From: Terrirubrum flagellatum
GTDB taxonomy: Bacteria > Pseudomonadota > Alphaproteobacteria > Rhizobiales > Beijerinckiaceae
Assembly (NCBI RefSeq): GCF_022059845.1
Contig: NZ_CP091852.1
Coordinates: forward strand, 62,001 to 126,000
Length of the DNA: 64,000 bases
Reading direction: 5' to 3'
The notes under the pieces: generated by a model
Told to the model about the DNA's origin: nothing
Database searches by the model: none
What the model saw: only the letters and a program-made list of their open reading frames with translations
In this document: piece after piece, positions 3 through 27,948 of the stretch
Numbering within the stretch: the first letter of the stretch is position 1
Layout: the number at the start of each line of letters is the position of its first letter
Position numbers and translations under genes: made by a program

Positions 3-797
3 GGCCCTTTCATCAGCACGGCGAAGAAGGGCGTCCATTCGCCGGAGTATATTCGGCCGATCGACACAGCGTCGCTGCAGACGCTGATGGCGCTCGGCAA
101 ATATGGCAGGTCGCTTGTCACAATCGCGCCAGAGCTCGTGGCCGCGGCGGACATCCGTAAGCTGGTTAGCGCCGGCGTGCGCGTCTCCGCCGGGCATAGC
201 GACGCGACGCACGCGCAGATGTTGATGGCGATTGACGCCGGGTTGACCGGGGTGACTCATCTTTTCAACGCCATGTCGCAGATGTCGGCGCGTGAGCTCG
301 GGCTCGTCGGAACGACATTCGTCGACGGCCGATTGATCGCCGGCGTTATCTGCGACGGAATTCACGTACACCCACTTAATCTGCGGACCGCCTTTCGCTT
401 GTGTGGTGCCGATCGGTTGATGCTGGTCACCGATGCGATGTCGACGGTCGGATCAGACATAAGACAGTTCTCGTTGCAGGGGCGTCCTGTCGCTCGCGAC
501 GGCGATCGGCTGGTCGCCGCGGACGGAACGCTCGCGGGCGCGCATCTCGACATGATGGCTGCGGTCAGGAACGCTGTTCAGATGATGGGCGTATCGCTGG
601 AAGACGCGCTGATCATGGCGTCGCGCACGCCTGCAAGATTTCTCGGGCTTGGCGATGAGCTTGGTCGAATCAAGCCTGGCTATCGCGCGGATCTCGTAGC
701 CTTCAGCGGCGACTGGAGCGTCGTCAAAACCTGGATCGGCGGCGAGGAAGCATCGCATGACGGCGGCGAGCAAATGCGCGCGCGGGCGCGCGGCTGA
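3..797 (+). CDS. nagA: N-acetylglucosamine-6-phosphate deacetylase, C-terminal part
   Basis: Partial gene: the frame is open from the window edge, so the N-terminus lies outside. The visible part begins with the family motif GPFISTAKKG and continues with the NagA metal/substrate motifs AGHS, THLFNAM, CDGIHVHP and LVTDAM, ending in the usual GYRADLV segment that closes the amidohydrolase fold. NagA removes acetate from GlcNAc-6-phosphate in the cytoplasm during amino-sugar and peptidoglycan recycling. An anmK gene at 9.0-10.2 kb belongs to the same recycling theme. Family identity is clear from these motifs. What precedes it cannot be seen. Confidence 0.93.
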   Translation, partial: GPFISTAKKGVHSPEYIRPIDTASLQTLMALGKYGRSLVTIAPELVAAADIRKLVSAGVRVSAGHSDATHAQMLMAIDAGLTGVTHLFNAMSQMSARELGLVGTTFVDGRLIAGVICDGIHVHPLNLRTAFRLCGADRLMLVTDAMSTVGSDIRQFSLQGRPVARDGDRLVAADGTLAGAHLDMMAAVRNAVQMMGVSLEDALIMASRTPARFLGLGDELGRIKPGYRADLVAFSGDWSVVKTWIGGEEASHDGGEQMRARARG

Positions 798-938: not shown

Positions 939-1190
939 ATGCGGGTGAACTATTTCTCCTGGCTGCGCACAAAAACCGGCGTATCGCGCGAAGATGTGGC
1001 GTTGCCGCAAGGCGGCGCGACTGTCGCTGATCTCGTGACCCACCTCGCCGGCAAGCATCCCGCGCTCGGAGAAATCGCCAATACGCCGGGCGCGCTGCGC
1101 TGCGTCGTCAATCGTCGGTATGTCGAGAATTCGCACAGTCTGGCGGAAACAGATGAGGTTCAGTTTTTCCCGCCCGTTACGGGAGGCTGA
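939..1190 (+). CDS. MoaD/ThiS-family sulfur-carrier protein
   Basis: An 83-residue beta-grasp protein ending in the bare di-glycine PPVTGG, the C-terminus that E1-like enzymes adenylate and convert to a thiocarboxylate. The start is the ATG at 939, with AGG at 931-933 five bases upstream. A GTG at 933 is in frame but lies on the ribosome-binding site. The gene is convergent with the MoeB-like gene and their ends overlap by 14 bases. MoaD feeds sulfur into molybdopterin, but no moaE, moaA or moaC is visible here, so this copy may serve another sulfur-transfer pathway. The family call is firm; the pathway is inferred. Confidence 0.85.
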   Translation: MRVNYFSWLRTKTGVSREDVALPQGGATVADLVTHLAGKHPALGEIANTPGALRCVVNRRYVENSHSLAETDEVQFFPPVTGG

Positions 1191-1977
1191 GCATTGTTTC
1201 CAATCTGGCATCGGCGGTCGCCGCTTCGCATGTCGGACAATTCGGCCGGCGCGGAAGCGTGACATGTTCGATGCTCGCAGCCCAGGCGTCATACATGGCG
1301 AGCGAGCCCGACAGGCTCGGTTCGATCCCGAGCAGTTCCTTGATAACCTCGACCGCCTGCATGGCGCCAAGCGCGCCGACAGCCGGGCCAAGTACGCCGA
1401 TATCGGCGCAGGAAGGCGTCACGGCGCGCGGCAGGGCTTCCGGATAGAGGCATCGATAACAGGGATGCGGCCGGCCCAAATAGGCCTTGAACGTGGTGAG
1501 AATGCCGCTCGTCACCTGAATCGCTGCGCTGACAAGCGGAATGCGGCGGGCGAAGCAAGCGGCGTGCACCGCGTCGCGCGTCGCGAAATTGTCGCTGCCG
1601 TCAGCGACGAGATCATAGCCCGCCACAAGAGCGTCGGCGTTCTCGACATTGATCGGCATTGCATGTTCGATGAGTTCGACATGCGGATTGAGCGCGCGAA
1701 CGGCGACTCGCGCGCTTTCGGTTTTGGCTGTGTCGATGCGATCGGTCGTATGAAGAATCTGTCGATGCAAATTCGAAAGTTCGACATAGTCGAAATCGAC
1801 GATTCCGAGATGGCCGACGCCCGCGCCTGCGAGAAAGAGCAGCAAGGGCGATCCCAGGCCGCCGGCACCGATCACGAGCACGCGCGACGTGGACAATCGC
1901 TCCTGACCGGGTGCGCCGATTTCCGGCAGCGCCATCTGCCGTCGATAGCGTGCGATTTCCTGATCGGAAAGAGACAT
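1177..1977 (-). CDS. moeB: MoeB/ThiF-family adenylyltransferase (E1-like)
   Basis: A 266-residue protein with the nucleotide-binding motif GAGGLG at residues 37-42, the zinc pairs C173-x2-C176 and C247-x2-C250, and a cysteine (C190, PSCADIGVLGP) at the usual catalytic position. It would adenylate the C-terminal glycine of a MoaD/ThiS partner. The candidate partner is the convergent gene ending at 1190. The start at 1977 follows GGGAG. A longer frame reaches 2001 without a better ribosome-binding site. It lies 57 bases downstream of the TIM-barrel gene and is probably cotranscribed with it. Assignment to molybdopterin synthesis specifically is not supported by neighbours. Confidence 0.88.
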   Translation of the reverse strand: MSLSDQEIARYRRQMALPEIGAPGQERLSTSRVLVIGAGGLGSPLLLFLAGAGVGHLGIVDFDYVELSNLHRQILHTTDRIDTAKTESARVAVRALNPHVELIEHAMPINVENADALVAGYDLVADGSDNFATRDAVHAACFARRIPLVSAAIQVTSGILTTFKAYLGRPHPCYRCLYPEALPRAVTPSCADIGVLGPAVGALGAMQAVEVIKELLGIEPSLSGSLAMYDAWAASIEHVTLPRRPNCPTCEAATADARLETMLSLP

Positions 1978-2034
1978 GCGCGCGCTCCCTCTCAAAATCA
2001 TCGCCCGGAACCATATGCCCGCTTGAGAGCGGCT

Positions 2035-3060
2035 TCAATCTGCAATGGACGCGTTCGACGCCATGATTTCGCGCAAAGCATGAAGCGATCGCTCCTGCGC
2101 GCCGTTCGATTCATGGCTGTCGTCTGGGCCGGGTTCGACCTCGAGAACAAGCGTCGCATTGGCGCCGACCCGTTCACGCAAACGACGCCAGGGCAGATTA
2201 CCCGCTCCGATCTCCAACCCTTCCGCCGTGACGGCTTTCGTCAAAGATTCTTCGTCCAATTCCGTCGACAGCGCGTCCTGCGACAGCAGCAGGCTGTCGG
2301 ACAGATGCAGATGGGGCATGCGCGAATCGACGAAATCGAACGGGTGAAGCGCATCGGTGCGCGCCAGATCATCGTCGGTGATCCAGTCGAAACGACGGTC
2401 GTCGCGCAAGGCGGCCAGTCGTCTTTTCTTGTAGTTGAAAAGATTGGCGGACAGCGTGGCGTGCGCGACGTCGATGAACGCTTCGACATTCGTCACGCGG
2501 GCCGCCTCGAGCGCGCTGCGGAATTCTGTGATTTCCCAAGGAAAAAAATGATCCAGGGGGCCGGACAGGAAATGTCGGCCGTCGCGCGGCAGCAGCGAAT
2601 AGTGGCCGACATTCTCAACCAGAAGGCGCAGATCGCCCGCGGCGCGCGCCAGGCGCTGAACAATATCGAGGAAGCCTGCTGTCGCGTCGGCCCGCGACGA
2701 GCGCGCCGGCGCATCGCCGAAAACAAGCGCCCAATAGCGATGCATGACCAGCGCCCCGCAACCGAGCGCATGCGCAGCTGCGATGGCGCGTTCAACAGGC
2801 TCGATATCGAAATCCATCGCCGTGACGCGCGCGACCGATTGATAGGGCTCATGCAGAACGAACCGCACGTCGTCGAAATTGTCACGCAGACGCGCGATAT
2901 TGTCCTTGACCTGCGCGTATCCCGTTTCGCTTGCGAGGTCGCGCGGCCCGAATGTGTGCAATTCAATAATGATTGGGAGGCCGACCTGGCGCAGCCGGTT
3001 TGCTCGATCGGACAATTGTCGAAGATCGATCGCGGCTCCCTTCAGGGCGTATTCCGGCAT
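2035..3060 (-). CDS. Xylose-isomerase-like TIM-barrel protein
   Basis: A 341-residue protein with the AP-endonuclease-2/xylose-isomerase fold. Metal-site residues appear in the expected order: Glu in LLVENVG, Asp and His in FIDVAHA, His and Asp in LHLSDS, and Glu near the C-terminus in LVLEVEPG. Members isomerise or epimerise sugars, inositols or sugar phosphates. The substrate here is unknown. The frame extends to 3150, but the Met at 3060 begins the recognisable fold. It is divergent from the DegT aminotransferase gene (135-base gap) and upstream of the MoeB-like gene, which suggests sugar or amino-sugar chemistry in the same pathway. Confidence 0.72.
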   Translation of the reverse strand: MPEYALKGAAIDLRQLSDRANRLRQVGLPIIIELHTFGPRDLASETGYAQVKDNIARLRDNFDDVRFVLHEPYQSVARVTAMDFDIEPVERAIAAAHALGCGALVMHRYWALVFGDAPARSSRADATAGFLDIVQRLARAAGDLRLLVENVGHYSLLPRDGRHFLSGPLDHFFPWEITEFRSALEAARVTNVEAFIDVAHATLSANLFNYKKRRLAALRDDRRFDWITDDDLARTDALHPFDFVDSRMPHLHLSDSLLLSQDALSTELDEESLTKAVTAEGLEIGAGNLPWRRLRERVGANATLVLEVEPGPDDSHESNGAQERSLHALREIMASNASIAD

Positions 3061-3194
3061 ATGGATCTCGCCTCTGGATTTCGCGGACAATCCGGGAGAA
3101 GCGCGCGGCGCAGCTCCGTCACTTTGCACAGCTCGCGCGATCTTGTCCATCAGTCGGACCGCGTCAGCGCATTAACCTAAGCGAGGTGCTTTCA

Positions 3195-4229
3195 ATGACA
3201 GCGACTGCAGCGCTTCCATTCACCATCGCCTTCGATCCGCGCGACGAAGACGAGCTCATGTCGCGCTGGCGCTCGGTTATCCGCTCGCAGAGATGGAGCG
3301 AGGGCGAGCAGGTTGAGGAATTCGAATCTCTCTGGACGAAATGGAACGACGCCACGGCGGTCGCCTTTGACAATTGGGCCGGCGCCGCGCTCGCCGCGCT
3401 CGATTTCTTCAATGTGAAGGGCGAAAAAGTTCTCTGCCCCTCAAATACTTTTCTCGCCACGCCGCGCGCGGCGCAGCTATCCGACGCCGAGGTGGTTTTC
3501 TACGATTGCAATCGCGAGGATCTCTGCGGATCTTTCGATGATTTCGTACGCAAGGCTGAGCTTGTCCGTCCGAAAGCCGCCTGGATCGTGCATGTTGGCG
3601 GCCACATCGCGTTCGACATTGTGCGCATCGCCAACTATTGCCGCGAGCGGGGAATCCGCCTGATCGAGGATTGCGCGCATTCGCACGGCGCGCATTGGAA
3701 CGGTCGGCGCGCCGGCACTTGGGGCGACCTCGGAATCTATTCGTTCTATGCCACTAAAACGATCTCCACCGGCGAAGGCGGCGTCGCTGTGGCGCGCGAT
3801 CCGGAAATTATCAAGCATCTGCGATCGTTCCGAAACTACGGCCGGGGGTCGAACTATACGATCCAGGGCATGAACCATCGCATGCATGAAATGACTGCGG
3901 CGCTTGCCGTCGTCCAGACGCGTCGCATGGAAGAAATCGTCGCCTGGAAGCGCGACTATGCGCGCGAAGTCCTCGACCGCGCTCATCCCAACCGCGTGCG
4001 CTTTCCCGACGGTATGGAAAGCGGATTCTACAAATACATCGTGTTCGACCCGATCGAAAAGAGCACCGGTCGCGTCTATGAGCTGCCTTGCCATCGCATC
4101 ATGCGTCATGAGGTCGATCTGCCGAACACCGATTGGGTGGCGGCGAACCACTGGTGTGCGCCCATCTATTATCCGCGCGAGGCGCAAACGCCGAAAGCAG
4201 GGAGCGTGGAGCGCGTCGCGTTGGCGTGA
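3195..4229 (+). CDS. DegT/DnrJ/EryC1/StrS-family PLP aminotransferase
   Basis: A 344-residue fold-type I PLP enzyme. The Schiff-base lysine is K188 in SFYATKTISTGEGG, preceded by the cofactor-binding segment EDCAHSHGA (158-166). The family transaminates keto-sugars or keto-cyclitols, often in antibiotic or cell-surface amino-sugar synthesis. The frame is open upstream to 2973, but the ATG at 3195 is preceded by GCGAGGTG and starts the homologous region. The C-terminus (after PIYYPREAQ) is shorter than in most family members. It is the first gene of a plus-strand run with a flavin monooxygenase and SufE. Confidence 0.85.
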   Translation: MTATAALPFTIAFDPRDEDELMSRWRSVIRSQRWSEGEQVEEFESLWTKWNDATAVAFDNWAGAALAALDFFNVKGEKVLCPSNTFLATPRAAQLSDAEVVFYDCNREDLCGSFDDFVRKAELVRPKAAWIVHVGGHIAFDIVRIANYCRERGIRLIEDCAHSHGAHWNGRRAGTWGDLGIYSFYATKTISTGEGGVAVARDPEIIKHLRSFRNYGRGSNYTIQGMNHRMHEMTAALAVVQTRRMEEIVAWKRDYAREVLDRAHPNRVRFPDGMESGFYKYIVFDPIEKSTGRVYELPCHRIMRHEVDLPNTDWVAANHWCAPIYYPREAQTPKAGSVERVALA

Positions 4230-4270
4230 ATGAGCGCCGTACGCTGAAGCGCCGCGAGAGGAGAGACGAG

Positions 4271-5494
4271 ATGACGATTTCTGATGCCGATCGTGCAGCG
4301 CTCTCCGGTTCTTCATTGCGATCGTCAACGCCGGATCCGGCTTCGATGATCGCTCGCGCCAGCGCGATGATCCCGACGCTCTGCGACCGCGTAGCGGTCG
4401 GAGAGCGGGATCGCCGTCTCCCGCCCGAAACCATTGCGGAACTCAGGGGTGCGGGATTCTATCGCGTGCTGCAACCAAAACGGTATGGCGGATATGAGAT
4501 GGCGCCGTCGGTCATGAATGAGCTGCAGATTGAGTTGAGCCGCGGCGATATGTCGGTCGGGTGGGTTTACGGCGTGACCGCGGTGCTCGCCTTCCATCTG
4601 GCGCTTCTCCATGAGCGCGCGCAGGATGATGTATGGAGCGCCAACCCCGATGCGCTTCTGGCCGCAAGCTATATGCCGACAGGCAAGGCGACGCCGGTGG
4701 AAGGCGGCTTTCGTCTGTCCGGCCGCTGGGGCTATGCAAGCGGGGTTGATCACTGCGACTGGATATTTCTTGGAGGGCTCGCGTCGCGGACAGACGACGC
4801 TCCGCCGGACGCCTGCGCGTTTCTTCTGCCGCGACGTGATGTTGAAATTATCGACAATTGGCGGACGATGGGCCTGCGCGCCACCGGCAGCCACGACGTG
4901 GCGGCGCGCGACATTTTCGTGCCCGCCTATCGCGTTCATCGCCATATCGATCGCTTTTCCGGCGCGAGCGCCGGCCTCGCCGTAAACAGCGGGCCGCTCT
5001 ATCGCTTGCCGCTGCCGCAATTGCTCTTCCGCGCCATAACGTCCTCCTGCATCGGCGCGCTGCAAGCGATGCTTGATGCCTTCATCGAACATAACCGCGC
5101 GCGGATCACAGTCATGGGCGCCTCGGCGGCGGCGGACGCAGTCGCCCAATGCGTTGCGGCCGAGACGCTTGCCGCGATCGACGAAATGCGCGCGATGATC
5201 CATCGCAATGTCGCGGCCTTGACGTCCTATGCGGCGCGGCGCGAAGAGGCGCCGATACGGGAGCGTCAAATCCAGCGCATGCACGCAACCATGGTTCCGG
5301 AAAGGTGTTGTGCGCTGGCGCAACGATTGTTCAAAGCGTCCGGGACCTCAGCCTTGCTTGAGGAGAAGCCCTTCGCGCGCATTTTGGCTGATCTTTCGGC
5401 GGCGCGCCAACACGCCGCGGTCCAGTATGAGCAGCACGGACGCGTCATGGGCGCGGCCATGATGGGAATTGAGACAACTGACACGCTTCTCTGA
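4271..5494 (+). CDS. Acyl-CoA-dehydrogenase-fold flavin-dependent monooxygenase
   Basis: A 407-residue protein of the ACAD superfamily. The segment SGRWGYASGVDHCDWIFLGG and the GWVYGV and ATGSHD motifs are typical of class D two-component hydroxylases such as HpaH/HsaA and of pigment-hydroxylase relatives, rather than true acyl-CoA dehydrogenases. Such enzymes use reduced FMN or FAD supplied by a separate reductase; no reductase gene is visible nearby. It lies 41 bases after the DegT gene and 41 bases before sufE, so probably in one transcript. The substrate is unknown; an oxidation step in a small-molecule pathway is the likely role. Confidence 0.78.
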   Translation: MTISDADRAALSGSSLRSSTPDPASMIARASAMIPTLCDRVAVGERDRRLPPETIAELRGAGFYRVLQPKRYGGYEMAPSVMNELQIELSRGDMSVGWVYGVTAVLAFHLALLHERAQDDVWSANPDALLAASYMPTGKATPVEGGFRLSGRWGYASGVDHCDWIFLGGLASRTDDAPPDACAFLLPRRDVEIIDNWRTMGLRATGSHDVAARDIFVPAYRVHRHIDRFSGASAGLAVNSGPLYRLPLPQLLFRAITSSCIGALQAMLDAFIEHNRARITVMGASAAADAVAQCVAAETLAAIDEMRAMIHRNVAALTSYAARREEAPIRERQIQRMHATMVPERCCALAQRLFKASGTSALLEEKPFARILADLSAARQHAAVQYEQHGRVMGAAMMGIETTDTLL

Positions 5495-5535: not shown

Positions 5536-5961
5536 ATGACAGCGATCTCGGAAATAAGCCTGGCGATCGAGCAGGAATTTCTTGCGCTGCCTGATTGGGA
5601 GCAGCGCACGCGACGGCTGCTTGATTTCGGGCGTCAGTTGCCGGACATGGATTCGATCCTCAAGGTCGAGGACAATCGCGTCACGGGATGTCAGTCGCAG
5701 GTCTGGATCGCCGGAGGCTACGATGCCGCGGCAGGCATTGTCCGCCTGCAGGCCGCGTCCGACGCGCTGATCGTTCGTGGACTCATTGCGCTGCTGCTGC
5801 GTCTTTATTCCGATCAGCCGCCGGACACGATCCTGGCGCATTCTCCGGATGTCTTCGAACGCATAGGCCTGTCGACGTCGCTGTCGCCAAGTCGGGCGAA
5901 CGGTCTTTATCTCATGGTGAAACGGATTCGCGAGCTCGCGGCGCGCGAAGGCGGTTCCTGA
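5536..5961 (+). CDS. sufE: SufE-family sulfur acceptor protein
   Basis: A 141-residue protein with the SufE signature cysteine C52 in the motif RVTGCQSQVW. SufE takes persulfide sulfur from a SufS-type cysteine desulfurase and passes it to Fe-S assembly or other acceptors. No desulfurase or sufBCD is visible, so it is an orphan copy. It stands next to the JAMM/E1 fusion (convergent, 12-base gap) and in the same 5-kb block as the MoaD/MoeB pair, which suggests it supplies sulfur to a carrier protein. That role is inference; family membership is strong. Confidence 0.88.
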   Translation: MTAISEISLAIEQEFLALPDWEQRTRRLLDFGRQLPDMDSILKVEDNRVTGCQSQVWIAGGYDAAAGIVRLQAASDALIVRGLIALLLRLYSDQPPDTILAHSPDVFERIGLSTSLSPSRANGLYLMVKRIRELAAREGGS

Positions 5962-5973
5962 TCGATGCTGCGA

Positions 5974-7470
5974 CTAGCCGCTTGCGAGCGGGCCTTCGAT
6001 CGGTCCGTCAATGCGCTCGACAGGAGGCCAGTGGGATGGAGCGCTGACAAGCGCCCGGTCCGCGCCCTGATCGGCCGAACCGCGTAGTCCAGCGCATCGA
6101 CAGTTGGCTCGTTTCTTCTGGGGGCGATCTGTCACGCCGAGTCCCTCGGCGACAAAGTTCATCTGCATCCGCTGGAACGGCGGATCGAAGCGACCCGTCA
6201 TCCACCCGATCGCATAACCGGCGGCGAAGGTGCCCGAGACGGTCGTGATATAACCGACCGTATCGATCTGGGGCGTCTCCGTCGGATCCGGCCCGCGCGT
6301 TACCTTCAACGCCGCGCGCTTCGCTTCGCGCTCCTCCGGAGACAAGAGCTCAATTGCGGCTCGCGTTGGATCGACCATGCTGCGGCAATAGGGACAGGGA
6401 TCGTCCGCGAGAAACCGCGTGAGTTGAATGATTTGCCCGGTGACGCGACCGTCGCGCCCCTCGATCAACCCCGCGCAGTCGATCGCTGGAACGAGATAGC
6501 GGATCGCCATTTCGGAGAGCGCGACGCGGCTGTGCTGCTGGTCTGTGCAGCCGAGAATGACATCAGCCGATGCGACGGCGTCGATGATCTCCGTCTGCGG
6601 CAATCGCCCCATATAGGCGTCGACGCGGATCGAGGGATCGATCGCCGCGACATGGCGCTTCGCGAGCAAGGCCTTTGGCGTTCCCTGCTGCGCATGGATT
6701 GGCATCGATCCATGCATGCGCTCGAGATTAGACTCGCTGACGCGATCGATGTCGGCGACGATGATGCGCCCGATGCCGGCGCGCGCCAGGATCGGGATCG
6801 CGGCGGAGCCGGTGCCGCCGGCGCCGATCACGGCGACCGTTGATCGGCGAAGACGCTGGTGCGCTTCTTCTCCGAAAGCGCTCGAAAATCGCGCGACCCG
6901 CTCAGGCGCGGCGGCGGCGGGCGGCGGCGGCTCGCCATGCGGCCATGTCTCGATGTCGGGCCTGCGTTCAACCATGATGCGCTGCACGGTTCGCCATCCG
7001 CCGGCGAAGAAAATCCGGCCCGACGCCGCCAACTTTCCGTCAAGGCGCGAGAATATCAGGCTGGCGTAGGGACGAGCAGGCGCGAAGCCGGACAAGAAGT
7101 CCGCCAGGTGCGAGTCCATGTCGTCGTCGAGCGCGCTCGGCCGCGGCGGCGCGCCCTCCGGATGCGAATGGATGACGCCGACTGCAAAGGGTTGACGTTC
7201 GGCGCGACGCGCGACGCGCGTCATATAACGCGATTGAATTTTCAGGATGTCTTCGGACTCGTCGAGATCGCCCGGCTCCGGCGGCGCGAGGCCGGCGAGC
7301 GTCAACACAAGTCCGCCCGGCGTATCGCGCCAACCGAACCAGGCGAAACTTCCCCATTCGCGCGCGGGATGCCGACGAAAGATAAGGTCAATCAGCGCGC
7401 CGAAATCCGGCTCCGCCATCCGCACGAGCGCGTCAGGCGCTCCCGATGTCGACAGACGAGCGGCTGTCAT
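5974..7470 (-). CDS. JAMM (JAB) isopeptidase/E1 ThiF fusion protein
   Basis: A 498-residue two-domain protein. The N-terminal JAMM zinc peptidase shows E38, H101-S-H103, S112 and D115, all expected ligands and the catalytic acid, although the spacing from H103 to S112 is one longer than the classical motif. The C-terminal E1 (ThiF) domain has GAGGTG at 216-221, an acidic ADID at 239-242, and the zinc pairs C359-x2-C362 and C457-x-C459. No cysteine lies between residues 362 and 457, where MoeB-type enzymes carry their catalytic thiol. It overlaps the small ubiquitin-like gene by four bases (ATGA), so the pair is translationally coupled. The expected activity is trimming then adenylating that protein. 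Confidence 0.88.
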   Translation of the reverse strand: MTAARLSTSGAPDALVRMAEPDFGALIDLIFRRHPAREWGSFAWFGWRDTPGGLVLTLAGLAPPEPGDLDESEDILKIQSRYMTRVARRAERQPFAVGVIHSHPEGAPPRPSALDDDMDSHLADFLSGFAPARPYASLIFSRLDGKLAASGRIFFAGGWRTVQRIMVERRPDIETWPHGEPPPPAAAAPERVARFSSAFGEEAHQRLRRSTVAVIGAGGTGSAAIPILARAGIGRIIVADIDRVSESNLERMHGSMPIHAQQGTPKALLAKRHVAAIDPSIRVDAYMGRLPQTEIIDAVASADVILGCTDQQHSRVALSEMAIRYLVPAIDCAGLIEGRDGRVTGQIIQLTRFLADDPCPYCRSMVDPTRAAIELLSPEEREAKRAALKVTRGPDPTETPQIDTVGYITTVSGTFAAGYAIGWMTGRFDPPFQRMQMNFVAEGLGVTDRPQKKRANCRCAGLRGSADQGADRALVSAPSHWPPVERIDGPIEGPLASG

Positions 7471-7742
7471 GAAAGAATTCTCTCTCGCGCGTCGTTTGCG
7501 CCGCCCAGCACGAATTCGCGCGTCACGAGAAATTGCGCCCCGTTTTCGATGTCGATCGGAGTATCGAGATCGACCGGCGTCAATGCGTCGACCCCCGCGT
7601 CGTGTTCGACGACTGCGTTCATGCGCGGCACGTTGACGAGCGCGGCGATCTCGGCGCCCGTTACGCGCTTCGTCAGGCCGTGCGTCGCGTCGAAGCGGCG
7701 ACGATTGACGAAGATATGAAGCTCTGAGTTACGATCGTTCAT
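7467..7742 (-). CDS. Ubiquitin-like beta-grasp protein with cleavable tail
   Basis: A 91-residue protein resembling one domain of prokaryotic multiubiquitin proteins: an N-terminal strand FVNRRRF, the helix motif VTGAEIAALVNVP (27-39), a late strand FLVTREF, then G80-G81 followed by a ten-residue tail ANDARERILS. A tail beyond di-glycine is what a JAMM peptidase would remove, as in eukaryotic ubiquitin precursors. The ATG at 7742 follows GGAGAA. It lies 33 bases after the CoA-transferase gene and overlaps the JAMM/E1 gene by four bases. Whether it modifies proteins or carries sulfur is not decidable here. No E2-like gene is visible. Confidence 0.75.
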   Translation of the reverse strand: MNDRNSELHIFVNRRRFDATHGLTKRVTGAEIAALVNVPRMNAVVEHDAGVDALTPVDLDTPIDIENGAQFLVTREFVLGGANDARERILS

Positions 7743-7775: not shown

Positions 7776-8963
7776 CTAGATCGCCGCGTTGGCGCGCAGC
7801 GTGGCGATCTTCTCGCCGGCCATGCCGAGCCATTCGTCAAGGATCGCGTCTGTATGTTCGCCAAGCGCCGGAGCTCCCCGGCGAACTTCAGGCGGCGTGT
7901 CGTGCATGCGGAAGGCCGGCGCCTGAAAGGGAACCGCGCCGCCGGCGTGCGGCACGTCGACGATTTGCGCGCGGTGCTTCACCTGCGGATGCTCAATCAC
8001 GTCGGCGATCGTCGACACGCGCTCGCACGGCACGTCCGCCGCATGGATCAGGCGCAACGCTTCCTCGCCCGAAACGCTTGCCCCCCAGGCGTCAATGATC
8101 TGCTCGAGCGCTGCGACGTTGCGATTGCGATCGACAAATGTCTTGAAGCGCGGATCATCGATAAGATCCGGCCGTCCCATTGCGCGCGCGAAGCGCGGGA
8201 AATGGTCATCATTGCCCGCCACGACGTAAATCCATTGTCGATCGCCAGACTGGAAACAGTGAGATGGCGAGAGATAACGATCGCGATTGCCATAACGCGT
8301 CATTTCGCGGCCGAAGAGGATTCGTTCCGGAATCGCCGTCGTGAGCATCGACATGCCGCTTTCCATCAGCGTCGCTTCGACAACCTGGCCGCGACCGGTC
8401 TGGTCCCGGGCGCGCAGGGCGGCGAGGGCGGCGATCGTTGCATAGAGCGCGGTGCCGTAGTCGCAGACGAACACGCCGGTCATCGTCGGCGCGCCTTCGG
8501 GATGACCGGTTTGCGACATCACGCCGCTCAGCGCTTGCGCCGCGCCGTCGAAGCAAGGGTGTTGAGCGAGCGGCCCGTCCTGGCCAAACCCGGATATCCG
8601 CACCATGACGAGGCGCGGATTGATCGCGCTCAAGACGTCCCAGCCGCAGCCCATTTTTTCCATAGTGCCCGGACGGAAGTTCTCGATGAGCACGTCCGCT
8701 TTCGAGGCGAGGGCGCGCAGGAGTTCCTGGCCTTCAGGGTTGCGGAAATCAATGGTGAGACTGCGCTTGTTGCGATTGGCCGACATGAAGAACAACGTCT
8801 CGCCGTCGACCAGTTCGCCGACACGCCGGCCTTCTTCGCCGCCGTCCAAACGCTCCACCTTGACGACGTCAGCGCCGAGATCGCCAAAAATCTGGGCGGC
8901 GAACGGACCAGCGATGTAACGCGAGAGATCCAGAACTTTCAGGCCTTCAAGCGCAGCGGCCAT
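7776..8963 (-). CDS. CaiB/BaiF (class III) CoA transferase
   Basis: A 395-residue class III CoA transferase. Family hallmarks are visible: the N-terminal LEGLKVLDLSRYIAGPF, the nucleotide/CoA-binding NRNKRSLTIDF, and the catalytic aspartate D168 in FVCDYGTALYA. These enzymes move CoA between carboxylic acids through aspartyl-CoA thioester and anhydride intermediates. The start at 8963 follows GGGAGA. It is directly upstream of the ubiquitin-like gene (33 bases). Class III CoA transferases are also found near JAMM/E1/ThiS genes in thiocarboxylate siderophore clusters, to my recollection, which fits a thioester-handling pathway but does not prove it. Confidence 0.88.
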   Translation of the reverse strand: MAAALEGLKVLDLSRYIAGPFAAQIFGDLGADVVKVERLDGGEEGRRVGELVDGETLFFMSANRNKRSLTIDFRNPEGQELLRALASKADVLIENFRPGTMEKMGCGWDVLSAINPRLVMVRISGFGQDGPLAQHPCFDGAAQALSGVMSQTGHPEGAPTMTGVFVCDYGTALYATIAALAALRARDQTGRGQVVEATLMESGMSMLTTAIPERILFGREMTRYGNRDRYLSPSHCFQSGDRQWIYVVAGNDDHFPRFARAMGRPDLIDDPRFKTFVDRNRNVAALEQIIDAWGASVSGEEALRLIHAADVPCERVSTIADVIEHPQVKHRAQIVDVPHAGGAVPFQAPAFRMHDTPPEVRRGAPALGEHTDAILDEWLGMAGEKIATLRANAAI

Positions 8964-9044: not shown

Positions 9045-10166
9045 TCAAGCAGCTTTGGCCAACCGGCCGCCGGGAATTGCGACCTTGACGCCGGTGGTCA
9101 GCGGGAAACTGACAGGCAGGCCTCGCAGCAGGCGGACAGCGAGGTATGCGAAACATTCCGCTTCGATGGCGTCGCCGCGCCAACCCACGTCCTCCGCCAT
9201 CAAGGGTTCGACTTTGGCGCGGACCTTGAGAGCGTCCATGATCGCCGGATTCTTGCGGCCGCCGCCGCAGATGATCAGTTGCTTCGGCCGTTCCGGCAAA
9301 AGATCAAGCGCCTTGCCGACGGTCGCAGCCGTGAACGCCGTCAGCGTGGCGGCGCCATCCGCCGGATCAAGTCCGTCGGCCATCGCCGCCGTGAAGTCGT
9401 AGCGATCGAGCGATTTCGGATAGGGCTCGCTCAGGAATGGATGCTGAAGAAGCTTGGCGAGGCGCGGCTCATCGACTTTTCCGCGCCGCGCGATCGCGCC
9501 GTCCACGTCCATCTCGCCGAGATGGTGGCGGATGATCCAATCATTGATCGGCCCGTTCGCGGGACCGGTGTCGAAGGCTATGATGTTGTCGCCGCCGCCC
9601 CACCAGGTGATGTTGGCGACGCCGCCAAGATTGAGCGCCGCCGCTGGCGCGGCTGCGCCGATCTTGCGCAGCAGCGCCGCGTGATAGGATGCAGATAGCG
9701 GCGCGCCGTGGCCGCCAGCGCGCATGTCGTCCGAGCGGAAATCATAGGCGACGTCGACGCCGGTGATGTGCGCCATCAGAGCGCCGTCGCCAAGTTGCCG
9801 CGTATTGCCATGACGGCTCCCGACCGGCGCGATATGCAGCACGGTCTGGCCATGAAAGCCGATCGCGGCGACTTCCTTTGGACTGAGACCGGCTTTCGCA
9901 AGAAAATCGTTGACCGCTAAGGACTGGGCGTGCGTCAGCGCTTTCTCAGCCTGTCGAAAGATCGGCGGCTCCGCTCCTGTGAATCGCCATTCGAGCGCGG
10001 CCTCGACGGCAGCCGAAAGAAGCTTGCGCACGTCGTCTGAATAGGGCGCCAGCGTCCAATGGCCGAACTCGGCGATGCTCTCGCCGTCGGTGCGAATGGC
10101 GGCGACGTCGATGAAGCCGTCGAGCACCGTTCCCGTCATCAAACCAATGGCCCACACAGGCTTCAT
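9045..10166 (-). CDS. anmK: Anhydro-N-acetylmuramic acid kinase
   Basis: A 373-residue sugar kinase of the ASKHA fold. It carries the AnmK signature near the N-terminus ([10 protein letters not shown], residues 8-17), GFHGQTVLH at 103-111, [12 protein letters not shown] at 151-162, NLGGVANIT and FDTGPAN. AnmK hydrolyses the 1,6-anhydro bond and phosphorylates anhMurNAc, yielding MurNAc-6-phosphate in cell-wall recycling. The usual phosphate loop is GLMSGTSLDGID; here Ser-to-Thr, Ser-to-Val and an inserted Phe (DGFID) deviate from it, so a shifted substrate is possible. It sits 81 bases upstream of the CoA transferase. Confidence 0.9.
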
Positions 10167-10238: not shown

Positions 10239-11207
10239 TCAGGCCGCCTCTGCGTCGGGCGCCAGATTCTTTGCAAAGATTCGTCCTTCCGGTTTTCGGC
10301 AGGTGCGGCAATGCTGCATGTTCTGCCGGCCCTTCGCGGCGAGTTCGGCGCGAAACGCCAAAGCGCGGCCGACGACGACTTCCGCCGATTCAGTGACGAG
10401 GTTGCCGACAACGCCGAGCTTGCCGTGACTGATCACGCAAATCCACACCTGGCCGTCCGGCGCCACGCATAACACATGTCCCGCCCAGAAGCATGGACCC
10501 TGCGGCACCGGCATGAACGCCGCCACTTCCTCAGCGACCATGCGATCGAGCGTCTCGTCGCTTTCCAACGTGTCGGCCGAGGTGATGTTATGCTCGGCGC
10601 CGCCCGGCACGAGCGCTTTCACCTTCACATGATCGTCGACCATCGCAACGAGTCGACGGAATTCATCGTCATAATTCTCTTCGGACTCGCCGAGATCAAT
10701 CTGATAGACGCCGATCGTAAGGCCGGCGCGGCCTTTGCCATGCTCAAGCAGAGTCTCGAGTCCACGCATCGTCTTTCGAAACGTGCCCTTGCCGCGATTG
10801 AGATCGTGGCTCCGTTCATTGCCGCCATCGATCGATACGAAGATCTTATGCGGCCAATCCACCGCGAGGATTTCCCGCACGCGCTTGTGGGTCAGCATGG
10901 TGCCGTTCGTGTGCCACTGAAGCGGGATATCGGGCATCACGTCGCGAACGGTCGCCAGCAGGTCGGCGAAGCGCGGATTCATCAATGGCTCGCCCCGCCA
11001 GTTTAAATGAATGGTCTTAGGTTGGACTGATCCGCTGTACTTCAGTTTTTGAAGTATAATTTTCAGATCAGGAGGATCCATATCTAATTTGCCGTGACTC
11101 TGCTTTGTATAGCAAAGGCGGCATTCCAGATTACATCTGGTAGTAGGATCAAGCCACAGCCAAACAGGGTGTTTTGAAGCAGCATGCTCTGTGCGGAGTC
11201 CAGCCAT
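10239..11207 (-). CDS. Radical SAM/SPASM-domain protein
   Basis: A 322-residue radical SAM enzyme. The SAM-binding 4Fe-4S cluster ligands are C25-x3-C29-x2-C32 (CNLECRLC), followed by a GEPLMNP-type turn. The C-terminal part has a SPASM-like cysteine set (GPCFWAG, VLCVAPDG, VWICVISHG, CRTCRK) that would hold auxiliary Fe-S clusters. SPASM proteins modify peptides, proteins or sugars; no precursor peptide is recognisable here. The start at 11207 follows GAGGTG. Its 5' end is less GC-rich than the surroundings. It is the first gene of a possible minus-strand operon with anmK, the CoA transferase and the ubiquitin-like pair. Confidence 0.8.
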   Translation of the reverse strand: MAGLRTEHAASKHPVWLWLDPTTRCNLECRLCYTKQSHGKLDMDPPDLKIILQKLKYSGSVQPKTIHLNWRGEPLMNPRFADLLATVRDVMPDIPLQWHTNGTMLTHKRVREILAVDWPHKIFVSIDGGNERSHDLNRGKGTFRKTMRGLETLLEHGKGRAGLTIGVYQIDLGESEENYDDEFRRLVAMVDDHVKVKALVPGGAEHNITSADTLESDETLDRMVAEEVAAFMPVPQGPCFWAGHVLCVAPDGQVWICVISHGKLGVVGNLVTESAEVVVGRALAFRAELAAKGRQNMQHCRTCRKPEGRIFAKNLAPDAEAA

Positions 11208-22578: not shown

Positions 22579-25500
22579 ATGTCGGGCTCGAAGATTGTGA
22601 ACGGCGGACGGGGCAGGCGTCGCATCGCCCTTCTGCTCGGGAGCACCGCGCTCGTTGGCGTGGCGGCTTTCGCGCCGGCCATTGCGGCCGACTCCACATG
22701 GGTAGGTGGAACCGGCTCGTCCTGGAGCGACGGCACGCAATGGGACAGCACGCCGACCGCGCCGACGGCGGCCGATCGCGCTCTCCTGACGGGTGCGGGC
22801 ACCCAGCCGATTGTGAACGGCGGCGAAAATCTCAGCGTGGGCCAGGTCACCATGTCGGGCGCCAGTACGCTGACGATTCAGGCAAGCGGCATCCTCAATG
22901 TCGTGACCAGCGGCGGCCCGCCGACGCCGGGACTCTTCACCTTGTCGGCCGGCACGCTGACGGGCGCGGGCAATCTCAACGTCGACACCTTCACCATGAC
23001 CGGCGGCGCGGCGTCGGGCGTCACCATTACGGCGGCGACTGCGTTCAATCTGAGCGCGTTCATCAGCGCCAATCTCGCCGGAGCCGGCGCGGTCAATGTC
23101 AACAGCAACCTGACGCTGAGCGGAACCAACACCTATACGGGCGCCACCAACATCGCCAATAACGTGACGCTGACGGCCAGCGGCAGTTCCGCCATCGGCG
23201 ACGCGAGCATCGTCACGTTCGGCAACACCAATTCGACCCTCGCCTTGACCGCGCCTGAAACGATCGGCGCCTTGAGCGGCGGCGGCAAAGTGACTCTCGG
23301 CAATTTCGGGTTGACGCTTTCCGGCGGCACGGCGACTTTCTCAGGCGACATTTCCGGCAACGGCCTTGTCGTCATCAACGGCGCCAACCAGACATTCTCG
23401 AGCGCGAACAGCTATCTCGGCGGCACGAACATCAACGCTGGCACGCTGCGCGTGAGCAATAGCGGCGCGCTCGGGTCCGGCTCGGTCTTTGTCAACGGCG
23501 GCGCCGCGCTCGAAGTGCAGGGCGGCGTCACGATCGGCAACGCTATCACGCTCGTCGGGACGGGCGTGTCGAACGGCGGCGCTCTGAGAAATATTTCGGG
23601 TAACAATACGTATTCGGGCGCCATCACGCTCGGCTCCGCGACACGCGTTACTGCGGATGCCGGGCGGCTGGATCTGAATGGCGGCATCAATGGCGCCGCC
23701 GCGAACACAGATCTGACGTTCGGGGGTGGAGCTGCGATTATCACCGTAGGCGCCGCGATCGGCGCAAACGTCGGCAACGTGGCGGTGAATATGCCCGGCG
23801 GCACCGTCACGTTTTTCACGAACAACAACTACACAGGCAGCACCACGATTTCCGCCGGCCAACTCCAGGCCGCTGCCGGCGACTCAATCCCCGACGCCAG
23901 CGCCGTAACGCTGAATATTCCCGGAAGCCTTTTCATCGCCGCAAGCGAGACCATCGGCTCGCTGACAGGGAGCGGAGCGGTTCGTCTCGGCAATGGCGCA
24001 GCGGTGACGTTGACAATTGGCGCGGACAATACTTCGCCGGCGGCATTCTCAGGCTCGATCATCGATAACGGCGCCGGCGGCACCGGAGGCATCGCCAAGA
24101 TCGGAACCGGCACGCTTACATTGACCGGATTGGGGAGCGGCTACACCGGCGGCACGAGGATCGATCTGGGCATTCTGTCGATCAGCGCCAATGCCAATCT
24201 CGGCTTCCCGACCGGCGGCGTCACGCTGAACGGCGGCACGCTGCAATCGACGGGAACGTTCTCGATGGGCCGCGTCGTCAATGTCACAGCCGCGAGCTCG
24301 ATCGACGTCACCGGTTCGAACAATCTGACCCTGACCAGCACGCTGACGGGCGCCAGCACGCTGACCAAGAGCGGAACCGGCACGCTGACCTTCGGGGCCG
24401 GGCTCAATACGGCCGGCTTTTCCGGCGGCATGGTGCTGGCGGGCGGCACGCTGAGCCTGCAGACCAATCTTGCCGCAGGTTTCGGTGCGATCCAGACGAC
24501 GGGTTCGGTGATCGACTATGGCGCCGGCGTCGACAACGCCGCGCCGATCAACATCAACTCGAACACGACGCAGTTGCAGGTTCTCACGGGAACGGCGACG
24601 CAGTCGGGCAACATCAGCGAGACCGCGGGTCCGCGTCCCCTCGAGAAGATTGGCGCGGGAACGCTCATCCTCAGCGGGACGAACACCTACACGGGAACGA
24701 CGACGATCAGCGCGGGAACGCTCGAGCTTCAGGGCGGCGCGGCGATCGCCAATACGAGCGCCGTCGTGCTTGCGAACGTCGCGGGCGCAACGCTCGCGAT
24801 TACAAATTCCGAGATCATCGGTTCGCTCGCCGGCGGCGGCACGACCGGCGGCAATGTGACGATTGCGGCGGGGCAAGCTCTTACATTGGGCGCCAACAAT
24901 TCGAGCACGACGTTCGCTGGCGTGATCAGCGGCGCGGGCGGTTTTTCGAAGGCCGGAACGGGCGTCTTCACGCTCGCCGGAACCAATGCCTATACCGGCG
25001 GCACCGCGGTCAGCTTTGGTACGCTGGCGTTGTCGGGGACGGGCTCGATCGCGACGTCGTCCATCTTGCAGGTAGGACCCGGCGCCAATTTTGACATCAC
25101 CCAGACCACGGCGGGCGCGTCGATCGCGTCATTGTTCAGCTCCGGCAATGTGTTCCTTGGCGCGCAGACGCTCACCATCACCAACGGCACGAGTCCATTC
25201 TCGGGCGTGATCGCGGACGCGGGCGGCATCGTCAATGCGACGGGCGGCGGGGTGACGGTGACGGGCGGAATCCAGACGTTCTCCGGCGTGAATACCTATA
25301 CCGGCGCGACGACGATCAGCGGAGGCACGCTGGCGTTGAGCGGCGGCGGCTCGATTGCGACTTCGAGCGGCGTATCGCTGGCGACCGGCGCCACGTTCGA
25401 TATTTCTCAGGTGACCACCGGCGCCACGATCCAGACGCTGAACAGCACGGCGGTGGGACAGACCGGCACGGTTGCGCTCGGCTCGAAGGCGCTGACCGTA

Positions 25501-27948
25501 TCGAACGGCGGAACCTTTGGCGGCGTGATCGCCGATGGCGGCCTCGGTGGCGGAGCGGCCGGCAGTCTTAGTGTGACGGGCGGAACGCTGACGCTGAGCG
25601 GTTCGAACGGGCCGGGCGCGCAGTTCACGGGCGCGGCGAACGTGAACGGCGGAGCGCTCGTCGTGACGGGTCTCTTCGGCGACTCCGCGGCGAATGCGGC
25701 GAACGTGGTGGTGGGCGGTGGAACGCTGCTCGGGACGGGCAACGGAACAACGACGGGCGTGATCGCCGGCAATGTGACGATGAACTCAGGAACGCTGTCG
25801 GCCGGCAATGCGCCTTCGACGGCCGGGCTGCTGCGCGTCAACGGCAATCTGATACTCAATGGCGGCACGACCGATTACACGTTCGGCGTCGCGAATGTCG
25901 TCGGCGGCGCGACCAACGATCTGATGAGCGTCGGCGGCAACGTCACGCTGGGAGGCGCTCTGAGCGTGAGCGCGCCGACGTCCGGCTATTATCGGCTCAT
26001 GAACGTTGGAGGGGCGACCGGAGGGAACTTCGCCACCGTGACCAACAATGGCCCCGCGACCGGAACCGCGACTGTCCTGACGAACGTCGCCAATCAGGTG
26101 AATTTGTCGATCATCGCCGCGGGACAGCAACTGCAGTTCTGGGATGGGACTGACCAGACGGGCGTTCAGAATCCAGGCGGCCCAAATGCCGGTCCGCTTG
26201 GCGGCAATGGCGTCTGGAATCAGACCACGGGCACGAACTGGACCGGTTCGGCGACCGGCGAGATCAACGATCAGTGGCGCGGCTCCGTTGCTGTGATTGG
26301 CGCTGAAGCGGTCGCGAACCCGGGAACGATCACGGTTGGCGCGGCGGCTCAGTCGCCAGTCTTCGACACGATCCAGTTCACGGGCGCGAGCGGTTATGTT
26401 CTGACGGGCGGCCAGCTCACGATCGGCGTCGCGGGCGCGAACGCCGGCACTCCAGCGGCGATCGGCTCGATCATCAATGTCAGCGGCGTGACGGCGACCA
26501 TCAATTCGGTCATTCAGAACGGCGCCGGTTCGCGGCTCAATATCGTCGGCGGCGGCGTGCTCAATCTCGGCGGGAACAACACGTTCACCGGCGGCCTGGT
26601 TGTTGGCGTCGGCGGCAGCGGCGCGACGGTGAACGCAACAGCGAGCGGCGCTCTTGGTCTGGGCGGCGTCACGCTTAACACGGGAACGATCAATGTCGCG
26701 GCGGCCACCATTCAGAATGTGACGGGCGTGACCACCGCGGCGGGGACGAACTTCAACAACAGCGGCGCGGTCAATTCCGGCTCATCGATCCAGAATGCGG
26801 GAACATGGGCCACCGCCGCCGGTTCGACGTCGAGCGGCGGCTTCACCAACACGGGAACGGTGAATGCGGCCGGCGGCGCGATCAATGGCGCGATCCTCAA
26901 CAGCAACGCATTCAACGTCACGGGAACGGTGACGAACGACGCGACCTTCACCAACAACGCCAATCTGACGGTGTCGGGAACCGGCAATTTCTCGATTGCG
27001 ACGCGGCTGACCAACAATGCGGCCGGCGTGGTGCTGAACAATGGCGTCATCACCGACGATCTCGTCAACGCCGGCCTGGTGACGAACAACGGGACCTACA
27101 ACGCCAACGTCACGAGCAACACCGGGACGATCACGAACAACGGGACGTGGAACGGCAATGTCGCGTCGAGTTCCGGCATCCTCACCAACGCCGGGACGTG
27201 GAACGGCTCGATCGTCAATTCCGGCACGTTCGCGAATTCGGGGATTGTGTCGAACGGCCTGACCAACTCCAACATCGCCACGACGACGGGCGGGGCGCTC
27301 AATGGCGCGAACGTCAACAGCGGAACCTTCACCGTCAACGGGGCGACGACGGCGAACAGCACGTTCGCCAACAGCGGCACGTTTGCGCTGACAGGCGGCA
27401 ACTTCACCGGCGTCACGACCTTTACGAACAGCGGCACGGTGACGGCGACGGGATCGCGCACGCTCGGCGCGACGAGCTTCGTCAATACGGCGGCCGGCCT
27501 GATCGACCTGCGCAACGGTTCGATCACGGATTCGCTGACGCTGGGCGGCGGCTACACCGGCGTCGCCGGCTCGCGCATCGCGCTTGATATCGATCTGTCG
27601 CGCGCATCAGGCGCGCGCGCCGATCTGGTGACGGTCAACGGCGCAGGCTCGGGTTCGACGTCGCTGGTGTTCAACATTGTCCAGCCCGGCACCGTCGCCT
27701 TCGCGACGCCGATCGACGTGCTGACCGTGACCGGCGGCTCGAGCCTGTCGGTCAATCAGGGGCTGGTGGCGACGAACGGCTTCATCAACTACTTCGCCGA
27801 GAGTTCGCCGGGTTCGGGCCGCTTCCAGGTGGTGTCGGTGTTCAATCCGGCCCCGGTGGCGGGCGTGGCCACGGGGCTCAACAGCGCGATCTCCAGCCTG
27901 ACCACGGGCTTCTTCGAGCGCCTCGGCGATCGTGTCGCGGCCGGATGA
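22579..27948 (+). CDS. Giant autotransporter passenger (beta-helix repeats)
   Basis: A 1789-residue reading frame that encodes a type V secretion passenger but stops just before the barrel. It has an extended signal peptide (basic MSGSKIVNGGRGRRR, hydrophobic stretch, cleavage near AIAA, about residue 36). It then carries many passenger-associated repeats built around SGTNTYTG-TTISAGTL, followed by a segment of short asparagine/threonine-rich repeats (about residues 1387-1634). The end, TGFFERLGDRVAAG, is the normal linker before the outer-membrane barrel, whose sequence continues in other frames to 28863. A restored protein would be about 2,090 residues. Likely function: surface-exposed adhesin. 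Confidence 0.87.
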   Translation: MSGSKIVNGGRGRRRIALLLGSTALVGVAAFAPAIAADSTWVGGTGSSWSDGTQWDSTPTAPTAADRALLTGAGTQPIVNGGENLSVGQVTMSGASTLTIQASGILNVVTSGGPPTPGLFTLSAGTLTGAGNLNVDTFTMTGGAASGVTITAATAFNLSAFISANLAGAGAVNVNSNLTLSGTNTYTGATNIANNVTLTASGSSAIGDASIVTFGNTNSTLALTAPETIGALSGGGKVTLGNFGLTLSGGTATFSGDISGNGLVVINGANQTFSSANSYLGGTNINAGTLRVSNSGALGSGSVFVNGGAALEVQGGVTIGNAITLVGTGVSNGGALRNISGNNTYSGAITLGSATRVTADAGRLDLNGGINGAAANTDLTFGGGAAIITVGAAIGANVGNVAVNMPGGTVTFFTNNNYTGSTTISAGQLQAAAGDSIPDASAVTLNIPGSLFIAASETIGSLTGSGAVRLGNGAAVTLTIGADNTSPAAFSGSIIDNGAGGTGGIAKIGTGTLTLTGLGSGYTGGTRIDLGILSISANANLGFPTGGVTLNGGTLQSTGTFSMGRVVNVTAASSIDVTGSNNLTLTSTLTGASTLTKSGTGTLTFGAGLNTAGFSGGMVLAGGTLSLQTNLAAGFGAIQTTGSVIDYGAGVDNAAPININSNTTQLQVLTGTATQSGNISETAGPRPLEKIGAGTLILSGTNTYTGTTTISAGTLELQGGAAIANTSAVVLANVAGATLAITNSEIIGSLAGGGTTGGNVTIAAGQALTLGANNSSTTFAGVISGAGGFSKAGTGVFTLAGTNAYTGGTAVSFGTLALSGTGSIATSSILQVGPGANFDITQTTAGASIASLFSSGNVFLGAQTLTITNGTSPFSGVIADAGGIVNATGGGVTVTGGIQTFSGVNTYTGATTISGGTLALSGGGSIATSSGVSLATGATFDISQVTTGATIQTLNSTAVGQTGTVALGSKALTVSNGGTFGGVIADGGLGGGAAGSLSVTGGTLTLSGSNGPGAQFTGAANVNGGALVVTGLFGDSAANAANVVVGGGTLLGTGNGTTTGVIAGNVTMNSGTLSAGNAPSTAGLLRVNGNLILNGGTTDYTFGVANVVGGATNDLMSVGGNVTLGGALSVSAPTSGYYRLMNVGGATGGNFATVTNNGPATGTATVLTNVANQVNLSIIAAGQQLQFWDGTDQTGVQNPGGPNAGPLGGNGVWNQTTGTNWTGSATGEINDQWRGSVAVIGAEAVANPGTITVGAAAQSPVFDTIQFTGASGYVLTGGQLTIGVAGANAGTPAAIGSIINVSGVTATINSVIQNGAGSRLNIVGGGVLNLGGNNTFTGGLVVGVGGSGATVNATASGALGLGGVTLNTGTINVAAATIQNVTGVTTAAGTNFNNSGAVNSGSSIQNAGTWATAAGSTSSGGFTNTGTVNAAGGAINGAILNSNAFNVTGTVTNDATFTNNANLTVSGTGNFSIATRLTNNAAGVVLNNGVITDDLVNAGLVTNNGTYNANVTSNTGTITNNGTWNGNVASSSGILTNAGTWNGSIVNSGTFANSGIVSNGLTNSNIATTTGGALNGANVNSGTFTVNGATTANSTFANSGTFALTGGNFTGVTTFTNSGTVTATGSRTLGATSFVNTAAGLIDLRNGSITDSLTLGGGYTGVAGSRIALDIDLSRASGARADLVTVNGAGSGSTSLVFNIVQPGTVAFATPIDVLTVTGGSSLSVNQGLVATNGFINYFAESSPGSGRFQVVSVFNPAPVAGVATGLNSAISSLTTGFFERLGDRVAAG
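26740..27480 (+). repeat. Short Asn/Thr-rich tandem repeats in passenger
   Basis: Roughly 250 residues made of repeated units of the type TN-NGTWNG-V and NSGTF-NSG, distinct from the longer NTYTG repeats upstream. The nucleotide sequence is correspondingly repetitive (recurring AACAACGGGACG and ACCAACAAC-like words), a region prone to slippage and copy-number change. Confidence 0.7.

Follow-up and report, generated by a model that had tools for sequence, protein, structure and literature searches.

A common origin is generally assumed for sulfur carriers and ubiquitin-like modifiers. The archaeal SAMP is a single ubiquitin-like protein (Ubl) that serves both sulfur transfer and conjugation; the MoaD and ThiS carriers are untailed and are not known to need a peptidase. 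To our knowledge, few systems are intermediate between sulfur carriers and ubiquitin-like modifiers. Two described groups bear most directly on the locus studied here. The first is Bub (BubA/BubB/BubCD). Operons of a polyUbl gene with a JAB-E1 gene form the fifth type (row 6e) in the part of Iyer et al. 2006 cited here (PMC1779556), and the cited portion of PMC13373217 presents Bub operons as putative immune pathways for which phage protection is not yet shown. The second comprises the thioacid pathways Qbs (thioquinolobactin), Pdt (PDTC) and Ptm (thioplatensimycin). As set out in the cited section of PMC6006322, such pathways pair a JAMM peptidase and an E1 with a carrier capped after its GG, use a two-domain type III CoA-transferase to transfer the sulfur to an acyl-CoA and yield thiocarboxylic acids; similar parts are given for Pdt in the cited part of Iyer et al. 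2006 (PMC1779556). Urm1 is described in the relevant section of PMC8561144 as carrying out both sulfur transfer and conjugation. The cluster reported below was not described in the titles and abstract openings of the open-access matches listed in our literature search, and a search for BubCD found no match in open-access papers.

The window is a stretch of 64,000 nucleotides from Terrirubrum flagellatum, and the features discussed here are collected in Table 1. On re-reading the sequence, the coordinates, strands and residues given for the Ubl and JAMM-E1 pair in the original prediction were found to match. The two genes have bases 7467-7470 in common, and the Ubl carries its G80-G81 motif and ten-residue tail in 91 residues. 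JAMM-E1 has all five JAMM residues (E38, H101, H103, S112 and D115), the GAGGTG loop and two cysteine pairs (C359/C362, a CxxC, and C457/C459, a CxC), and in the alignment it keeps the adenylation residues. Its Pfam matches are to ThiF (1.1e-36) and Prok-JAB (3.7e-6), and no rhodanese domain was matched in it by Pfam.

Table 1. Coordinates of the Ubl/JAMM-E1 pair and the surrounding genes in the window
Feature	Position	Strand	Remarks
NagA-like amidohydrolase, 3' part	3..797	+	gene crosses window edge
MoeB-type E1	1177..2001	-	ThiF domain only; catalytic-position Cys (..PSC..)
TIM-barrel protein (AP_endonuc_2)	2035..3150	-	without PDB relative by sequence
DegT/DnrJ/EryC1-type aminotransferase	2973..4229	+	likely start ~3195
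HsaA-like flavoprotein (acyl-CoA-dehydrogenase fold)	4133..5494	+	likely start ~4271
SufE sulfur-acceptor protein	5536..5961	+	GCQSQ cysteine motif; convergent with jamm-e1
JAMM peptidase fused to E1 (ThiF) domain, BubCD-like	5974..7470	-	498 aa; without catalytic-position Cys
Ubl carrier (Multi_ubiq-type)	7467..7742	-	91 aa; G80-G81, then ten-residue tail A82-S91
One-domain type III (CaiB-like) CoA-transferase	7776..8963	-	33 bp upstream of Ubl gene
AnmK (anhydro-N-acetylmuramic acid kinase)	9045..10166	-	one of two in genome
Radical SAM/SPASM protein	10239..11207	-	first gene of five-gene same-strand run

The small protein had been predicted to be a beta-grasp protein, and AlphaFold2 models it as one (pLDDT 78.7), with the strand order strand-strand-helix-strand-strand-strand and a poorly predicted tail (pLDDT <50 at residues 85-88). 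Multi-ubiquitin proteins rank first among its structural matches, both in Foldseek (best E 2.1e-3, none at E<=0.001) and in VIA-align (8u38: Z 10.6, rmsd 3.5, 75 residues). TtuB was among the best 50 Foldseek matches listed, and no ThiS or MoaD chain was present among the best 50 listed by either program. A sequence search of the PDB gave no useful match. The Multi_ubiq profile matched the window Ubl alone at E=0.069, under the cut-off, and matched eight of nine aligned family members at E<=1 (best 5.2e-8). The JAMM-E1 model (pLDDT 78.8, pTM 0.81) is matched nearly over its full length by Citrobacter BubCD (9ea4; Z 34.1, rmsd 3.2, 428 residues), while ThiF and MoeB structures rank lower and cover the E1 half only; the profile comparison for the JAB-E1 fusion (BubCD) gave E 8.9e-32. 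Taken together, sequence, predicted fold and tree place both proteins among the bacterial multi-ubiquitin/BubCD conjugation systems. Their nearest solved homologues belong to systems described as protein-conjugating, which counts against a sulfur carrier and in favour of E2-free conjugation, whereby JAMM-E1 would adenylate the trimmed Ubl and transfer it directly to proteins, as SAMPs are, and the JAMM domain would also remove it.

The E1 had been reported to have no cysteine at the usual catalytic position, which we take to lie, as in MoeB and ThiF, within 43 residues after the CxxC (here residues 363-405). None is present in that stretch, but this is not a mark of an unusual system, as had been supposed: a cysteine is found there in 0 of 23 JAB-E1 proteins, E2-associated ones included, so the feature is common to E2-containing relatives and is not diagnostic. 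Two of the 23 (L006 and L046), both outside the window clade, have a later cysteine in the following helix. In L020, L021 and L023, which are E1 relatives from the window's family, S..S is found where other rows keep the CxxC cysteines.

That no E2 is visible holds for the identified genes of the cluster, and the window genome gave no Prok-E2_E match. At E<=0.01 it matched none of the seven cluster genomes and none of 14 control genomes, while the same search found it in three of three planctomycete genomes (two over the cut-off, the third weak), in one of which (L036) it occurs together with Multi_ubiq. Prok-E2_B gave no match in any genome, controls included, so that this second search carries no information. 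In a JAMM-E1 tree obtained by a quick search, a branch with SH-aLRT 96 sets the cluster group apart, with the planctomycete proteins next to it (100), and the Prok-E2_E matches in this sister group are a second point in favour of conjugation. Of the 16 tree rows outside the cluster group (L007, L010, L020, L043, L046 and the 11 that were checked), an E2 was confirmed for all 11: seven are over the cut-off (L005, L006, L021, L023, L034, L045 and L047), L036 is over it in one search and just under it in another, L033 is weak, and L042 and L044 are called by annotation. One of these, on a Mesorhizobium plasmid (L045:3181-3860), encodes, besides its JAB-E1, a Multi_ubiq protein of only one domain and, separately, a Prok-E2_E protein. 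Because this single-Ubl system has an E2, a single Ubl domain is in itself no mark of the sulfur type.

The pair closes a run of five genes on the minus strand (radical SAM/SPASM, AnmK, CoA-transferase, Ubl and JAMM-E1; gaps of 72, 81, 33 and -4 bases), on which the DegT, HsaA-like flavoprotein and SufE genes converge, with the TIM-barrel and MoeB genes further out. Just beyond the window edge (L025) lie an ABC transporter and genes read as MurQ, GntR and SIS; these names and that of the NagA-like gene were assigned by reading and by homology to annotated genes of Sphingopyxis. The CoA-transferase (395 aa) contains a single CoA_transf_3 stretch over the whole profile and is thus one-domain rather than two-domain. 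The cluster MoeB (274 aa) consists of a ThiF domain only, without a rhodanese fusion, and keeps both the catalytic-position cysteine and the CxxC. Elsewhere in the genome there are two other MoeB-like proteins (47-50% identity; one is a 374-aa ORF) and a second AnmK (45% identity), and for this reason the cluster copies of MoeB and AnmK look dedicated. The cluster MoeB and SufE could nevertheless have other carriers as clients. No acyl-CoA synthetase was noticed among the cluster genes identified in an undirected look.

Some further observations concern individual genes. The cluster AnmKs are 68-71% identical to the window AnmK, as against 45% for the other AnmK of the genome; they have in common a loop of sequence TGTVLDG.ID, which reads SGTSLDG-VD in the AnmK of Sphingopyxis. 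The TIM-barrel protein gave no useful match to the PDB by sequence or to plasmids, and its family was seen only in this cluster (one of 337 class genomes at E<=1e-40, the window genome). Its identification as a DUF692/MNIO enzyme was considered and is unsupported: of four members, two match AP_endonuc_2 and one matches Lipase_GDSL_2 weakly. At 22579-27948, the window contains a long ORF of 1789 aa that is repetitive and, by eye, autotransporter-like. A phage or defence origin of the locus is likewise unsupported. No JAB-E1 relative was found in one pattern scan of viral contigs, and the Ubl had no match among phages or in PADLOC; JAMM-E1 had at least 25 PADLOC E1-E2 matches, and those listed cover the E1 part only.

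The original prediction had called for the same pair to be sought in other genomes and for its neighbours to be compared for E2 or sulfurtransferase genes. Adjacent homologues were found in Salinarimonas rosea, in G551 and in four Nitrospirillum, giving seven full-pair loci with that of the window genome and taking the pairing beyond chance. Eight neighbours are present in all seven, across Hyphomicrobiales and Azospirillaceae loci: the type III CoA-transferase, MoeB, SufE, AnmK, the radical SAM protein, the TIM barrel, the HsaA-like flavoprotein and DegT. The SufE cysteine motif is kept in three of three aligned sequences. The Nitrospirillum clusters add SufS (four of four by BLAST; the two tested are both above the NCBIfam cut-off, 544 versus 475 bits). 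For the window, Salinarimonas and G551 clusters, the stretches fetched contain no SufS; the window genome has a single SufS match at E<=1e-20 (62% identical), located on another contig. Of the two outcomes originally proposed, a thiocarboxylate sulfur carrier or E2-free conjugation, the neighbours favour the first, through SufE, the cysteine-containing MoeB, the type III CoA-transferase and the SufS of Nitrospirillum; the cluster and the second E1 had not figured in that prediction. With sulfur-relay and metabolic genes around the pair in seven of seven loci, and a cysteine-containing MoeB kept alongside, we regard E2-free conjugation as unlikely.

Full-length relatives seem to be rare in sequence searches. 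They were found in three of 298 family genomes at E<=1e-60, the window genome included, and in class and phylum samples the window genome alone was recovered each time (1/385 at E<=1e-40 and 1/349 at E<=1e-60). A pattern-limited profile scan of genome contigs returned eight loci (Salinarimonas rosea, four Nitrospirillum and three planctomycetes), but a hit had to contain either of two patterns, and since one pattern falls within the JAMM motif, the scan may pass over relatives whose JAMM domain is dead and may make the family look rarer than it is. A single-protein scan of genome contigs was unproductive. Among 149 relatives searched, eight genomes match at E<=1e-18, and the window genome and G440 alone were placed in the window clade, G421 (L015) having been left out of the placement and G468 and G470 being available as ORF lists only and not in the tree.

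The carriers differ in what follows the GG. The window carrier continues for ten residues, that of Salinarimonas for seven (APAADGR) and those of Nitrospirillum (HG) and Sphingopyxis (AA) for two each, while that of G551 ends exactly at GG. The JAMM residues, called from the alignment since a plain motif search missed three rows that are intact there, are all present in the full-length partners of six of six tailed carriers and in six of seven clade members overall. The exception is G551, in which the JAMM domain has lost H101, H103, S112 and D115. The intact site in the tailed systems and the tail-less carrier of G551 with its dead JAMM domain lend support to the proposal that the JAMM domain trims the tail, and a role as the tail-trimming enzyme fits this joint loss of tail and active site, which is one event in one lineage. 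The E1 part of G551 keeps every adenylation residue checked. Its intact state beside a dead JAMM domain suggests that the E1 part is retained for a function of its own; this retention can also be claimed for conjugation.

Both described groups share features with the pair. As in Bub, the JAB domain is N-terminal to the E1 in a BubCD-like full-length fold, the nearest structures to the Ubl are proteins with multi-ubiquitin domains (Z about 10), and no cysteine is found in the 43 residues after the CxxC in any row compared. In contrast to Bub, one tailed Ubl takes the place of tandem repeats, the genome gave no Prok-E2_E match and the identified cluster genes do not include DUF6527; Bub operons adjoin ImmA/IrrE and HTH genes, whereas the pair lies in a metabolic sulfur cluster. 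With Qbs, Pdt and Ptm, as described in the cited texts, it has in common a carrier capped after GG, a JAMM peptidase, an E1 and a type III CoA-transferase. It differs from them in its Multi_ubiq-type carrier, in the fusion of JAMM to its own E1, in another E1 without the rhodanese that PdtF has, in clustering with SufE (and SufS in Nitrospirillum) and in the presence of muramic-acid genes, while no acyl-CoA synthetase of the PtmA3/QbsL type was seen. PtmU4 and the thioacid group are two-domain in the cited section of PMC6006322, whereas the cluster CoA-transferase is one-domain. We file the pair in neither group, since it has no recognised E2, unlike Bub, and lacks the rhodanese and the two-domain CoA-transferase of Qbs, Pdt and Ptm. 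The GG-ended carrier and the catalytic-position cysteine and CxxC of the cluster MoeB are also features of MoaD/MoeB and ThiS/ThiF.

We consider it reasonably likely that the two genes form a sulfur-carrier module assembled from Bub-type multi-ubiquitin parts. In such a module, the JAMM domain would remove Ubl residues 82-91, an E1 (MoeB, JAMM-E1 or both) would adenylate G81, and persulfide from SufS/SufE would turn the adenylate into a thiocarboxylate. A small molecule would then receive the sulfur, perhaps by way of the CoA-transferase in the manner of thioplatensimycin synthesis. We infer trimming, adenylation, thiocarboxylation and delivery because the parts of the cluster are analogous to those of thioacid pathways; the last two of these steps, the substrate and the need for two E1s are purely inferential. 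As there is no recognised E2 and the sulfur-relay and muramic-acid cluster is conserved, the pair probably delivers sulfur to a metabolite rather than tagging proteins.

Delivery and tagging may also be combined, given that one Ubl may do both in Urm1/Uba4 and SAMP/UbaA. In a dual use of this kind, the thiocarboxylated Ubl would donate sulfur and also modify at least one protein of the pathway, with MoeB forming the thiocarboxylate and JAMM-E1 conjugating or deconjugating. This would account for the presence of two E1s, of which only MoeB has the catalytic-position cysteine, and Urm1 is a precedent in the cited section of PMC8561144; however, no conjugation target or E2 is known, and we think this arrangement improbable. 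Uba4, going by its PDB name, has a sulfurtransferase domain in the same chain, whereas here the two E1s are separate proteins, one of them fused to JAMM.

The recipient of the sulfur would lie within the muramic-acid/amino-sugar pathway, and the product would probably be an amino-sugar-derived sulfur metabolite. MurQ and SIS genes are present in the window, Salinarimonas and G551 loci, NagA in these three and one Nitrospirillum, and a BadF-type kinase in all but the window; the extra muramate genes vary with the stretch fetched. It could be objected that the sulfur genes and the Ubl pair merely adjoin muramic-acid genes, with MoeB and SufE serving MoaD/ThiS or Fe-S assembly. Two Sphingopyxis plasmids carry a Ubl and a truncated JAB fragment beside AnmK, NagA and SIS (MurQ is shown in one), and there an IS3 separates the JAB fragment from a class V aminotransferase fragment (L026:17262-20166). 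The broken sulfur part beside an IS, with the muramate genes remaining, implies that the two parts are separable. Set against this, the eight neighbours are found together again in loci of both Hyphomicrobiales and Azospirillaceae, and the other MoeB-like proteins and AnmK of the genome leave the cluster copies looking dedicated, so that we judge mere adjacency to be very unlikely. In the Sphingopyxis plasmids themselves, the sulfur part appears decayed while the muramate genes persist; that a Ubl and a JAB remnant are found there beside muramate genes also counts in favour of the sulfur-carrier module. Within or near the cluster, an enolpyruvyl-transferase gene, MurA-like by eye, was also seen in G551 (L037:6519-7931, plus strand) and Salinarimonas (L019:1476-2741, minus strand); if it is a second copy, it could be pathway-specific or confer self-resistance.

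Returning to the sulfur-carrier reading, one specific version of it is that a Bub-type module lost its E2 and was rebuilt as a dedicated biosynthetic relay that sulfurates a peptidoglycan-derived amino sugar, for example muramic acid, to give a thio derivative. We offer this only tentatively; if true, a sulfurated peptidoglycan amino sugar would represent an undescribed class of natural product or catabolic compound. More generally, the cluster is a conserved and apparently rare variant in which parts of the Bub kind are probably used like JAMM-trimmed sulfur carriers. If borne out, this would provide a clear example of proteins passing between conjugation and sulfur transfer, for which the tail-less carrier with its dead JAMM domain would serve as a natural control, and it would point to a sulfur-containing metabolite linked to peptidoglycan sugars.
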